Below the pieces are notes generated by a model that saw only the letters and a list, made by a program, of their open reading frames with translations, searched no databases and was not told the origin of the DNA. Positions 11,500 through 18,418 of a stretch of DNA of 52,767 bases are shown here, piece after piece. The stretch spans positions 1 through 52,767 of the forward strand of contig JAMPXC010000022.1 in the NCBI GenBank assembly GCA_023701385.1, written 5' to 3'. Position 1 is the stretch's first letter; each line of letters begins with the position of its first letter. The DNA comes from Pseudobdellovibrio sp. (GTDB lineage Bacteria; Bdellovibrionota; Bdellovibrionia; Bdellovibrionales; Bdellovibrionaceae). The position numbers were made by a program, and so were the translations under genes.

Positions 11500-12351
11500 C
11501 TAAATACGGCCCATATCTAGTGTTAAACCTCGACCAGACCAAGATTCAGCCTCCCAGAAATTAAGCAAATCCTTGTTTGTAAGCACATAAAAACACCCTT
11601 CCCGCATCAAATGCAGGTTTCCCGAGAAGTCAGACATCTCTGGATGCGCCGGCAAAGTCACCATCATGCGCCCATTTTGAAGGGCATGATGAACCGTCAG
11701 AAAGCTTCCACTCTTTCTTTCAGCCTGCGCAATCATCGTGACTGAAGATAAATTGGTAATTAAACGATTACGAAAAAAGAAAAAATGTTTTCTGACCTGC
11801 TGTTCACTCTCAAATTCAGAAAGAAAACAACCACCACTTTCTAAAATATATTTTTTTAGTTTGTTTAAATTCTGCGGGAATAAATTATCAATACCACATG
11901 GAAGCACCACAATCGTAGGCCTTGATGATTTAACCGCCGCCCAGTGCGCGCATTGATCCACGCCTACAGCTCCACCACTGGAAATAGCCACATTTGGCTT
12001 AGCTTCTAAAAACGCGGGTATTTCTTGCTGTAACCACCTTTGCGTGAACGAATGCATCTTGCGCGATCCAACAACCGCTAACACCTCATAGTACAGCCAC
12101 ACGGGTTCTCCTAAGTATTCTAAGAAAAGCGGCGGCTCTAACATTTTATAAAAACTTTGCGGGTAAACTTCATGCCCTGGATAGGTGTACTTAATCCCTT
12201 TATCCCGAAGGGATAACAGATAGCGCTCAGCCAGCAGCAATTCTTGCGGCGATAGCTTAGCTGTTAGTTCAGAAGTTATTTGAAGAATAGATTCCGGATT
12301 ACGGAACCCTAGCGATCTTTGTAAGGCTTTAAATATAACGGCTTTGTTCAT
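11500..12351 (-). CDS. dprA: DNA-processing protein DprA (Smf), short form
   Basis: DprA binds incoming single-stranded DNA during natural transformation and loads RecA. The 283 residues hold the Rossmann-like core: VVGSRKMHSFTQRW, AISSGGAVGVDQCAHWAA, TIVVLPCGIDNLFPQ, FLSEFESEQQ, FFFRNRLITNLSSVTMIAQAERKSGSFLT, and the trailing GR-MVTLP segment. A region before the core (about 1-95) replaces the SAM domain. It is shorter than the usual 360 or so because the C-terminal winged-helix domain is absent. It lies close to the split comEC at 14635-16282, which supports a competence role. Confidence 0.95.
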   Translation of the reverse strand: MNKAVIFKALQRSLGFRNPESILQITSELTAKLSPQELLLAERYLLSLRDKGIKYTYPGHEVYPQSFYKMLEPPLFLEYLGEPVWLYYEVLAVVGSRKMHSFTQRWLQQEIPAFLEAKPNVAISSGGAVGVDQCAHWAAVKSSRPTIVVLPCGIDNLFPQNLNKLKKYILESGGCFLSEFESEQQVRKHFFFFRNRLITNLSSVTMIAQAERKSGSFLTVHHALQNGRMMVTLPAHPEMSDFSGNLHLMREGCFYVLTNKDLLNFWEAESWSGRGLTLDMGRI

Positions 12352-14634: not shown

Positions 14635-15552
14635 ATGAACTTCGTCTATATTTTAATCTATCTATCGCTAATTTCACACACCGTCCGCTTTTCGATTGTT
14701 GATTTTTTGATCGGATTTTTTTCTTTCGCACATGTAAGTTGTCTTAAGTCAGCTCCAGAAAATGTAAGATCAGTCGAATCCTTACATGCATTAGTGTGTG
14801 GAAAAAATTTTTCTGATGTAAAGCAGTCGAATTTATTGATCGCCTCGGGATTAATTCACCTTTTTGTCGTGTCGGGTTCGCACTTAAAAATTTTGCACAA
14901 AATAGTATTTTATTTATTATGTAACAAATATTTTTCTTTAACAAAATTTTTGCAACTAACTATTTTTTCACTGCTGTTTTTCTATTGTGCAATTTGCAAA
15001 TTCAATCCGCCGATTTTTCGTAGCTTCATAGCGCTCGTTCTTTTAGCAGTGTTAACAAAATATAAATTACGCTGGAGAACTGAACAGCTGATTTTAATTT
15101 CAGGTTTGATTTGTTTGGGGCTTTCTCCCCAGTGGATTAATTCCCTATCGTTTCAAATGAGCTGGATCGCAAGTTTAACATTAGCTGTAATTAATTTTTT
15201 CTTCGTAAAAAGCTCTGCGCTTTTTAAAAATTCTTTATTTTATGTGAACTATCTAACGACATTTAATTTTATTGGCATTCCCCATCCGCTTTCAATTGGC
15301 GTATCAACACTCTTGACTAAATTTTTAGAATACGTTTTATTTCCGCTCGCTTTAGCGGTCTATCTTTTTCCATTTTTAGGAAAACTTTTCGATGTCTTCA
15401 TATTTATATTAAACAGCTTTCTTTCACGTTTAGAGCTGACCGTAATTTTTAGATCTTACGAAAATGAAAAGCTGATCTTTTTAAACTGGATTCTTATTTT
15501 ATCTATTCACCTGTTTTTAAACCGCACTTCGAAAGCCGCTCAACATGCCTAA
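14635..15552 (+). CDS. comEC: ComEC/Rec2 competence-domain membrane protein (channel part of a split ComEC)
   Basis: A 305-residue polytopic protein matching the Competence domain of ComEC: LIASGLIHLFVVSGSHLKIL at about 73-92, NPPIFRSFIALVLLAVLTKY at about 122-141, and LSPQWINSLSFQMSWIASLTL at about 161-181. ComEC is the inner-membrane channel that carries single-stranded DNA into the cytoplasm. Full ComEC is 700-800 residues. Here the N-terminal OB-fold region is missing or very reduced, and the C-terminal metallo-beta-lactamase part is a separate gene starting inside the last 8 bp of this one. The ATG is the first codon of the frame and no good ribosome site is visible. Confidence 0.88.
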   Translation: MNFVYILIYLSLISHTVRFSIVDFLIGFFSFAHVSCLKSAPENVRSVESLHALVCGKNFSDVKQSNLLIASGLIHLFVVSGSHLKILHKIVFYLLCNKYFSLTKFLQLTIFSLLFFYCAICKFNPPIFRSFIALVLLAVLTKYKLRWRTEQLILISGLICLGLSPQWINSLSFQMSWIASLTLAVINFFFVKSSALFKNSLFYVNYLTTFNFIGIPHPLSIGVSTLLTKFLEYVLFPLALAVYLFPFLGKLFDVFIFILNSFLSRLELTVIFRSYENEKLIFLNWILILSIHLFLNRTSKAAQHA

Positions 15553-16282
15553 GTATTTATTTTTGTTTTTACTTTTTCACTCAGGCGTATGTGCGAATAA
15601 ATCTTCGTTTTCGTTCATTGTATTTTGGAACGTGGGCCAAGGCCAATGGATCACAGCTGTCAATCCAGACCAGTGTCTTCATTATGATTTCGGCGGCGAA
15701 CTTAAATTCTGGCCTAAAAACAAAAATCTTTTACTCAAATTATGTAAGAACAAACAAAATATCTTACATTTATCGCATCCAGATCTAGATCATTATGCTC
15801 TTTATCCGCTTTTAATTAAAACTCTTTCCAAACTTTGCTGGAACGATATTGATCATGCCGCTTTACCTTTAAGGCGCGTACCAAAGAAAATATCTTTATG
15901 CACACCAGAAAATAAAAAAATCACTGAAAGTAAAAGGCTTTACAAACCTACGGTTTTCACCAATAAAAACGACAGCTCACAGGTTTATCACTATAAATCG
16001 GTATTAATTCCCGGTGATTCATCACAAAAACAAGAAAAAATATGGGCTAAAACGATCAAAACCCCGCAAGATTTTAAATTCTTATCCTTAGGCCATCACG
16101 GAAGCAGAACCAGCAGCAGCGATTTTCTCTTAACAAAACTTTCCCACTTAAAAATGGCGATCGTGCAAGCCCGAAAAAGCAGATTCAATCACCCGCACAA
16201 AGAAACTGTGCAACGACTTAAAAAATACCACATCCCCCTTCTCAAAACAGAAGACTGGGGAAATACCGCGGTTTTATTTTAA
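15545..16282 (+). CDS. ComEC-type metallo-beta-lactamase domain protein (nuclease-like part of a split ComEC)
   Basis: 245 residues with a signal-peptide-like start (LFLFLLFHSGVCANKS), so the domain should be periplasmic. Fold features follow the ComEC C-terminal domain: FWNVGQGQW, the metal site His78-x-Asp80-x-Asp82-His83 in LSHPDLDHYALYPLL, LIPGDSS, LSLGHHGSRTSSSDFL near 178-193, and FNHPHKETVQRLKKY. This domain is thought to degrade the non-transported DNA strand. It overlaps the upstream membrane gene by 8 bp. Its own signal peptide argues for two separate proteins rather than a sequencing frameshift. Confidence 0.88.
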   Translation: MPKYLFLFLLFHSGVCANKSSFSFIVFWNVGQGQWITAVNPDQCLHYDFGGELKFWPKNKNLLLKLCKNKQNILHLSHPDLDHYALYPLLIKTLSKLCWNDIDHAALPLRRVPKKISLCTPENKKITESKRLYKPTVFTNKNDSSQVYHYKSVLIPGDSSQKQEKIWAKTIKTPQDFKFLSLGHHGSRTSSSDFLLTKLSHLKMAIVQARKSRFNHPHKETVQRLKKYHIPLLKTEDWGNTAVLF

Positions 16283-16289
16283 GAAAGAA

Positions 16290-17171
16290 CTATTCAACAG
16301 GAATATAAATATCAAACTCAGAATTATCTGACTCAGGATCAAAACGATGATCGTAAACTTCAAGATCAGCGGCCATACGAAGCTTTTTACCCGACTTAGG
16401 AAGCCACGACCCGTAAATATAATTTATTGTAAAATCTACTTTTTCTAAAACACCTTTATGAGTAAATACCGCATACTCGCCAGCTGGTATAACTTTAGAA
16501 ACCATTCCGCTTGGAATTTCACCCACATCAGACACCTTCACACAAGCCATGTAATAACATTCATCCGGCGATTTCTTTTCGTTTTGCGCCAGCGGCATAC
16601 AAATGCCGTAGCTATTTTGATTTAGCGGTTCTTTGATTTCAGCTTTGCGACGTTGAAACTGGCGCCACAAACGTGGCACAATAATATGATTATTCTTTTC
16701 TGGAGATAAAATTGAAATCATCGGGCTACCAAGCCCGATCACGATGAATTCTTCACAAGTTATAAAAACAGGCTGCATATTAAATCCTTTGTACAAGTGA
16801 TCTAGATAACCCATGGTGATTTTTTGTTTGGAAAAGATAGAGTGGGTTTTGGATCCGCTTTTTCGATAATCGCCGGGAGTAATACCAAAGAAATTTTTAA
16901 AAGCGCGTGTGTAGGCTTCTTGAGATTCAAAACCTGCGCGCAAGGCGATGTCGATAATACGTTTGTCGGTTTTTAAATCTTCGAGTGATTCAGACAACCG
17001 ACGTTTTCGGATATAGTCTTTCACCGTTTCACCCACTGCCGAGTTGAAAACCATCTGGAAATGCCAACGCGAAAAATTCGCCTGTTTGGCAATTTCATCC
17101 AGTGAAAGATTGTCATGCAAATGCGCTTCGATAAAGTCGATCGCATTTTGTATTTGATCCAAGAACGTCAT
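16290..17171 (-). CDS. AraC-family transcriptional regulator with GyrI-like effector domain
   Basis: Two domains in 293 residues. Residues 1-110 are the AraC/XylS double helix-turn-helix (DNLSLDEIAKQANFSRWHFQ, then IIDIALRAGFESQEAYTRAF, ending FFGITPGDYRKS). Residues 135-293 form a GyrI-like effector-binding domain (PVFITCEEFIVIGLGS; VIPAGEYAVFTHKG; DFDIYIPV-type ending). This is the Rob layout, used to sense small or hydrophobic ligands. Its 3' end faces the split comEC at a gap of 7 bp. The regulated genes cannot be read from the window. Confidence 0.93.
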   Translation of the reverse strand: MTFLDQIQNAIDFIEAHLHDNLSLDEIAKQANFSRWHFQMVFNSAVGETVKDYIRKRRLSESLEDLKTDKRIIDIALRAGFESQEAYTRAFKNFFGITPGDYRKSGSKTHSIFSKQKITMGYLDHLYKGFNMQPVFITCEEFIVIGLGSPMISILSPEKNNHIIVPRLWRQFQRRKAEIKEPLNQNSYGICMPLAQNEKKSPDECYYMACVKVSDVGEIPSGMVSKVIPAGEYAVFTHKGVLEKVDFTINYIYGSWLPKSGKKLRMAADLEVYDHRFDPESDNSEFDIYIPVE

Positions 17172-17311: not shown

Positions 17312-18418
17312 CTAGATTTTGTAAGGATGGTATTCCATTCCTAAATCTTTGGCTACTGGTTCGTAGCATACGTAACCACCATAAACATTTAAACCTTTCA
17401 TTAAAGGTTTAGATTTAGCAACTGCATCTTCAACACCCATAGCAGCGATCATTGAACCGTATTTTAACGTTACGTTAGTTAAAGCGTAAGTTGATGTACG
17501 AGGCACAACGCCTGGCATGTTAGGTACGCAGTAATGGATTACGCCATCAACTTCGTATGTAGGATTAGTGTGTGAAGTTGGGCGGCAAGTTTCGATACAA
17601 CCACCTTGGTCAACCGCAACGTCTACAACGACTGAACCTTTTTTCATTTGAGAAACCATCTCTTTAGAAACAAGAGTTGGAGCTTTATGACCAGTGATTA
17701 ATACACCACCGATAACTAAGTCAGATTCAACAACAGCTTCTTCGATATTTTTTGCGTTCGAGAATAAAGTTTGGCAACGACCTTGGAAGATATCATCTAA
17801 GTACTCTAAACGAGCAGTGGAAACGTCTAAGATAGTCACTTGAGCGCCAAGACCTACAGCCATTTTAGCTGCGTTAGTTCCTACAACACCACCACCGATG
17901 ATAGTTACTTTACCAGGTTTAACACCAGTCACGCCGCCAAGTAAGATACCTTTACCGGCGTGGTCTTTTTGTAAGTAGAAAGCACCGATTTGAGTTGCCA
18001 TACGACCAGCAACTTCAGACATCGGAGTTAATAATGGTAATGAACCATTTTCTAATTGGATAGTTTCGTAAGCGATAGCTTTAACTTTGCGCTCAGCTAA
18101 AACTTTAGTAAGTTTCGGTTCAGCAGCTAAGTGTAAGTATGTGTACATGATTTGGTTTTCACGCATTAATTCATATTCATCTGGAAGTGGTTCTTTCACT
18201 TTCATGATCATATCAGCTTTAGCGTAAACTTCTTTTTTCGTATCGATGATTTTTGCACCAGCTTTTTCGTACTGTTCGTTCGAAATACCGCTGCCAAGAC
18301 CTGCGTCTTTTTCAACGATCACTGTGTGACCTTCTTTAGTTAACTGTTTCGCACCCGCTTCAGTCATACCTACGCGGTTTTCGCTGATTTTGATTTCCTT
18401 AGGAACTCCGATAATCAT
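17312..18418 (-). CDS. ald: Alanine dehydrogenase
   Basis: Catalyses NAD-dependent oxidative deamination of L-alanine to pyruvate and ammonia, or the reverse. The 368-residue length is typical. The N-terminal [19 protein letters not shown] motif, [10 protein letters not shown], the NAD site [17 protein letters not shown] near residues 172-188, VDQGGCIET and the [20 protein letters not shown] segment are all characteristic. AGGAG precedes the ATG. It is a single-gene unit with a strong terminator. In an amino-acid-feeding organism this would channel alanine into central carbon metabolism. Confidence 0.98.

Follow-up and report, generated by a model that had tools for sequence, protein, structure and literature searches.

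ComEC/Rec2 of Bacillus subtilis and Legionella pneumophila has a Competence channel domain and a metallo-beta-lactamase (MBL) domain with HxDxDH, GD, HHGS and HP motifs. An OB fold (DUF4131) is common but optional among ComEC/Rec2 proteins, and the presence of channel and MBL in one polypeptide, a trait of the three-domain type, is likewise optional in the ComEC family. Moorella glycerini ComEC (MBL domain, PDB: 9ic4) is a single chain that has an OB fold and ends in the MBL domain. ComEC domain gain and loss are well described (PMC6299819), and a nuclease domain is lacking from nearly half of ComEC proteins (PMC8579336). Competence-only proteins (C profile, Pimentel and Zhang, 2018), among them ComEC of Helicobacter pylori, consist of a channel without OB fold or fused MBL. 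A separate nuclease is known from Streptococcus pneumoniae, where EndA is found with the ComEC channel (PMC8579336). How ComEC couples strand degradation with strand import is an open question in the field, and the full-length protein is hard to purify (PMC12455585).

The window analysed here, a stretch of 52,767 bp from Pseudobdellovibrio sp., encodes the parts of ComEC/Rec2 in the same order. In contrast to ComEC/Rec2 they are two proteins, the OB fold is absent, the break lies before the last transmembrane helix and the MBL protein has four invariant cysteines and a predicted export segment of its own (Table 1). The MBL shares its fold, and an Asp at the second motif position, with that of M. 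glycerini, but is not part of a single chain. As in S. pneumoniae, the putative strand-degrading nuclease is a separate protein beside the ComEC channel; EndA, however, belongs to an unrelated nuclease family, whereas here the separate protein is the ComEC MBL domain itself. Those Bdellovibrionia that lack the MBL gene resemble H. pylori and other bacteria with Competence-only ComEC, but most, unlike H. pylori, keep the MBL as a separate, adjacent gene. We consider it likely that ComEC of Bdellovibrio-type predatory bacteria is made of two proteins from overlapping genes, one a channel in the membrane and the other a nuclease exported on its own. No report of such a split, with fission into adjacent channel and MBL genes, was found in the open-access literature, and it is this fission that appears to be new; ComEC domain gain and loss and a separate nuclease (EndA) were known already. 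The arrangement is a natural separation of channel and nuclease into two small proteins, with both in some species and only the channel in their relatives, and each can be deleted, purified or swapped alone. Domain surveys of proteomes that score one protein at a time would assign such genomes to profile C and miss the separate MBL nuclease.

Table 1. Features of the split comEC locus (positions in the window).
Feature	Position	Strand	Basis
ComEC channel protein of 305 aa with the Competence domain alone, without OB fold or MBL	14635..15552	+	PF03772 match
N-terminal loop with invariant cysteines C36 and C55, at the place of the OB fold of other ComEC	14740..14799	+	alignment
Last transmembrane helix of the channel (helix 277-304), followed by basic tail	15463..15546	+	alignment with fused ComEC, AF2 model
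8-bp overlap ATGCCTAA; the MBL gene begins before the channel gene ends	15545..15552	+	ORF reading
Separate ComEC-type metallo-beta-lactamase (MBL; predicted nuclease) protein, 245 aa	15545..16282	+	TIGR00361, C-terminal part
N-terminal hydrophobic segment of MBL (signal peptide or anchor), aligned with the final helix of fused ComEC	15548..15592	+	alignments
Four invariant cysteines of MBL (C44, C67, C98, C119)	15674..15901	+	orthologue alignment
HxDxDH metal motif (H78, D80, D82, H83)	15776..15793	+	residues read, orthologue alignment
HHGS metal motif (H184, H185)	16094..16105	+	kept in 49/49 MBL proteins
ald-like gene (alanine dehydrogenase by translation), conserved downstream neighbour, marks the empty site where MBL is missing	17312..18418	-	translation

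Channel and MBL proteins

The sequence-only reading had described ComEC as split into a channel gene and an MBL gene that overlap by 8 bp, and the open reading frames of the window, which lie in different frames, agree with this in coordinates and frame. The overlap probably couples the translation of the two genes. Neither half reaches the cut-off of the full-length equivalog TIGR00361 (22.9 and 52 bits vs 190), and throughout the class relatives channel and MBL have separate frames and starts. A gene for an AraC-type regulator with a GyrI-like C-terminal part (by translation; 16290-17171, minus strand) lies between the MBL gene and the ald-like gene.

The channel protein has a Competence domain (PF03772, E = 8e-17, 61.9 bits vs a cut-off of 23) and also matches TIGR00360 (E = 8e-14). 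Its AF2 model (pLDDT 88) is all helical and gave no structural match of weight in the PDB with Foldseek or VIA-align; its sequence profile matches the full-length ComEC structures 9vc6 and 30bt. A PHROGs search with the channel returned nothing. There are about 60 residues ahead of the channel domain, and DUF4131 (PF13567) has no match anywhere in the genome, while control genomes give matches. The OB fold, earlier called missing or reduced, is missing and not merely reduced; its relocation to another part of the genome was ruled out by the same search. The N-terminal loop with C36 and C55 corresponds to the N-loop of B. subtilis ComEC, for which a disulphide has been shown (PMC5031224).

The MBL protein matches the C-terminal part of TIGR00361 ComEC_Rec2 (positions 446-661, E = 3e-14). 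The best fold match of its AlphaFold2 model (pLDDT 89) is the M. glycerini ComEC MBL domain [Foldseek E = 9e-13; Z = 21.8, 220 residues, r.m.s.d. 2.8, 17% identity], and a phosphorylcholine esterase comes second. The metal and active-site residues H78, D80, D82, H83, D158, H184, H185 and H216 are present, and the statement that the zinc site is intact holds for all metal motifs; a ComEC-type MBL domain with its metal ligands (HxDxDH, GD, HHGS) is found here on a separate protein. H78, D82 and H83 occur in 49/49 MBL proteins and D80 in 46/49. Asp at the second place of HxDxDH is the usual state in ComEC (PMC5031224) and is no defect. The MBL protein (15545-16282) also matches phage PHROG families at domain level only, among them phrog_7043 (E = 3.5e-9), annotated as a tail protein of 1077 positions; phage proteins too appear to contain ComEC-type MBL domains.

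Break point and predicted export

Alignment with nine fused ComEC proteins places the last helix of the channel on their next-to-last helix and the hydrophobic N-terminus of the MBL on their last transmembrane helix; in the HMM alignment of the MBL profile the hydrophobic segment falls on residues 531-545 of full-length ComEC 9vc9. The C-terminal tail of the channel is net positive in 46 of 47 orthologues, which argues that the break lies in the cytoplasmic loop preceding the last transmembrane helix of fused ComEC. The MBL had been credited with a new signal peptide. The hydrophobic N-terminus is real, but since it coincides with the last transmembrane helix of fused ComEC it is probably that helix re-used and not a new element. 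The former helix has perhaps turned into a cleavable signal. K/R make up 8% of the linker after the hydrophobic segment, as would be expected for a signal peptide, compared with 17% in fused ComEC and 20% in f12, a family from another class of the phylum, but a rule-based scan finds a strict consensus cleavage site in only 19/49 MBL proteins (a looser rule fires on the fused controls too), and a membrane anchor is equally plausible.

All four cysteines of the MBL are present in 47/49 proteins; the other two, both from family f11, have only the first pair. The set is absent from 9/9 MBLs of f12, and no pair occurs in the nine fused ComEC. Because the cysteines are kept or missing by pairs, C44-C67 and C98-C119 probably form two disulphides, which would imply an oxidising compartment; the argument draws on one gain or loss event. 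Hydrophobic N-terminus, basic channel tail and paired cysteines, read as sequence features, point to export, and we infer that the MBL is periplasmic, outside the cytoplasmic membrane, and stabilized by disulphides.

Loss of the MBL gene and probable function of the pair

The channel gene is present in 105 of 107 genomes of the class Bdellovibrionia. An MBL match is found in 89/107, though that of G080 is weak and distant and lies in another gene; in 48 of 60 relatives the MBL protein has its own open frame. In the 14 MBL-less genomes inspected (L089-L100, L102, L105) the convergent ald-like gene comes straight after the channel stop, with a spacing from a small overlap up to 448 bp. These loci, in families f1, f10 and f11, appear to be clean deletions of the MBL gene with the channel kept, and each of the three families has MBL-positive members too. 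Loss would have occurred in at least three lineages, if the families are natural groups, and perhaps in six; the channel tree needs six MBL changes, and well-supported branches require two of these. Apparent losses in G074 and G101 are contig ends and were left out of this count. The MBL nuclease seems, on this pattern, to be a dispensable subunit.

In f12 (L069-L077, L107-L112) channel and MBL genes lie on different contigs. The channel there has about 400-460 aa and the MBL about 300-370 aa with its own hydrophobic N-terminal transmembrane segment; one such MBL gene sits in the middle of a 63-kb contig. Family f12 appears to represent a second, independent separation of the ComEC parts, to distant loci.

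Repeated loss of the MBL with retention of the channel, and its lack of linkage to the channel in f12, would also be compatible with a free periplasmic nuclease or phosphodiesterase, acting for example on prey DNA or wall polymers, beside a channel that works alone as in H. pylori, where ComEC functions without an MBL (PMC5031224). Phosphorylcholine esterase as second-best fold match fits such an enzyme. This is the main rival, but we regard it as unlikely: the closest match is the ComEC MBL, the class orthologues that were read all sit directly behind the channel gene and, fragmented assemblies apart, no locus with an MBL but no channel was found.

We favour instead a two-subunit ComEC in which the nuclease acts with the channel. 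An ancestral ComEC with channel and MBL in one chain would have split within the short cytoplasmic loop that leads to its last transmembrane helix. The first gene would then give the DNA channel of the inner membrane, whose basic C-terminal tail lies in the cytoplasm, and the second, which starts within the stop region of the first, would be made by coupled translation. Acting as signal peptide or membrane anchor, the former last helix would bring the MBL domain into the periplasm, where the conserved disulphides would stabilize it. The nuclease could dock at the periplasmic mouth of the channel and degrade the non-transported strand as the other strand enters; having become dispensable, it would later have been cleanly deleted in several lineages that keep the channel. 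Taken as a whole (a detachable periplasmic nuclease, no OB fold or ComEA, fission at least twice in the phylum, the nuclease discarded several times and the channel under selection), we judge this model to stand at about an even chance.

A role outside DNA import for both genes, as a vestigial or re-purposed ComEC, is suggested by the absent OB fold and by the search for ComEA: in none of 85 class genomes does a TIGR00426 match reach the cut-off, and almost all matches fall within frames about 800 aa long, those that were read being Tex, although a diverged or other receptor is possible. The sole TIGR00426 match in the source genome is Tex, which was rejected as a ComEA homologue. Nor did the open-access literature yield an account of Bdellovibrio undergoing natural transformation. 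On the other side, DprA is encoded at 11500-12351, 2.3 kb away from the gene pair, the two genes persist throughout the class and their metal motifs stay intact, and H. pylori reportedly relies on another periplasmic DNA receptor, ComH (PMC6877725). We consider re-purposing improbable. If DNA import works in Bdellovibrionia, another receptor is needed, and a system lacking both OB fold and ComEA raises the question how DNA is held. Tethering an OB fold or ComEA to the ComEC MBL raises its nuclease activity in vitro (PMC12455585); with neither present here, the nuclease may have low activity or act in some other process.

The split in relatives and its origin

A contig search found 28 named loci, 26 of them Bdellovibrionota-like; the other two, from Enterococcus and Nitrospirae, are long fused frames. 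The loci that were read show the two-gene pair every time, at 23-56% identity and in independent assemblies, including the complete Bdellovibrio bacteriovorus chromosome (L036). Channel and MBL genes are in different frames in 44 of 45 scored relatives and fused in none: 30 pairs have one phase, 14 the other and 1 the same frame. The start of the MBL gene is offset by -4 in 20 pairs and by -8 in 8 (range -40 to +23); starts were chosen nearest to -4, so the offset counts lean to that value, while the phases are independent of the choice. The relatives offer no single frame that could be restored and no fused gene at this spot, and the proposal of a real split is upheld. The split is a trait of the whole class Bdellovibrionia, neither special to the source genome nor due to a sequencing error.

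Programmed frameshifting or stop read-through could in principle yield a full-length ComEC from such a locus, since nearly every relative has the two genes overlapping or abutting. One phase would then be expected, however, and the mixed phases (30 loci shifted in one direction, 14 in the other, 1 in neither) argue strongly against it; the spread of the overlaps, the basic tail and signal-like segment that a fusion would hold mid-protein and the f12 parts on different contigs also speak against it, and we give this reading very little credence. The two overlapping frames and the 8-bp overlap resemble, at first sight, one comEC gene interrupted by a recent frameshift or by an error in sequencing or assembly, but with the same layout in every relative read, both phases represented and an MBL gene with its own start and hydrophobic N-terminus, the chance of such an artefact in the source genome is negligible.

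In other families of the phylum comEC is found as one open frame of about 500-950 aa, and the channel profile lies in the same frame as the MBL in 5/9 frames taken from them; the other classes appear to keep one fused gene. With two genes class-wide and fused frames outside, the simplest reading is that fission preceded the diversification of Bdellovibrionia. Family f16 of the phylum (G120, G131, G136) has no MBL and a weak or no Competence-domain match; its ComEC may be lost or highly diverged.

Both genes are under purifying selection where dS is measurable, dN being well below dS for both in such pairs; between L029 and L036 dN is 0.22 and dS 1.0 for the channel, and 0.39 and 1.3 for the MBL. 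Complete MBL frames in the class span 235-360 aa, with the exception of a 507-aa open frame in G042; in L049, probably the same genome, the frame of 508 aa merely extends upstream, out of phase with the channel gene.
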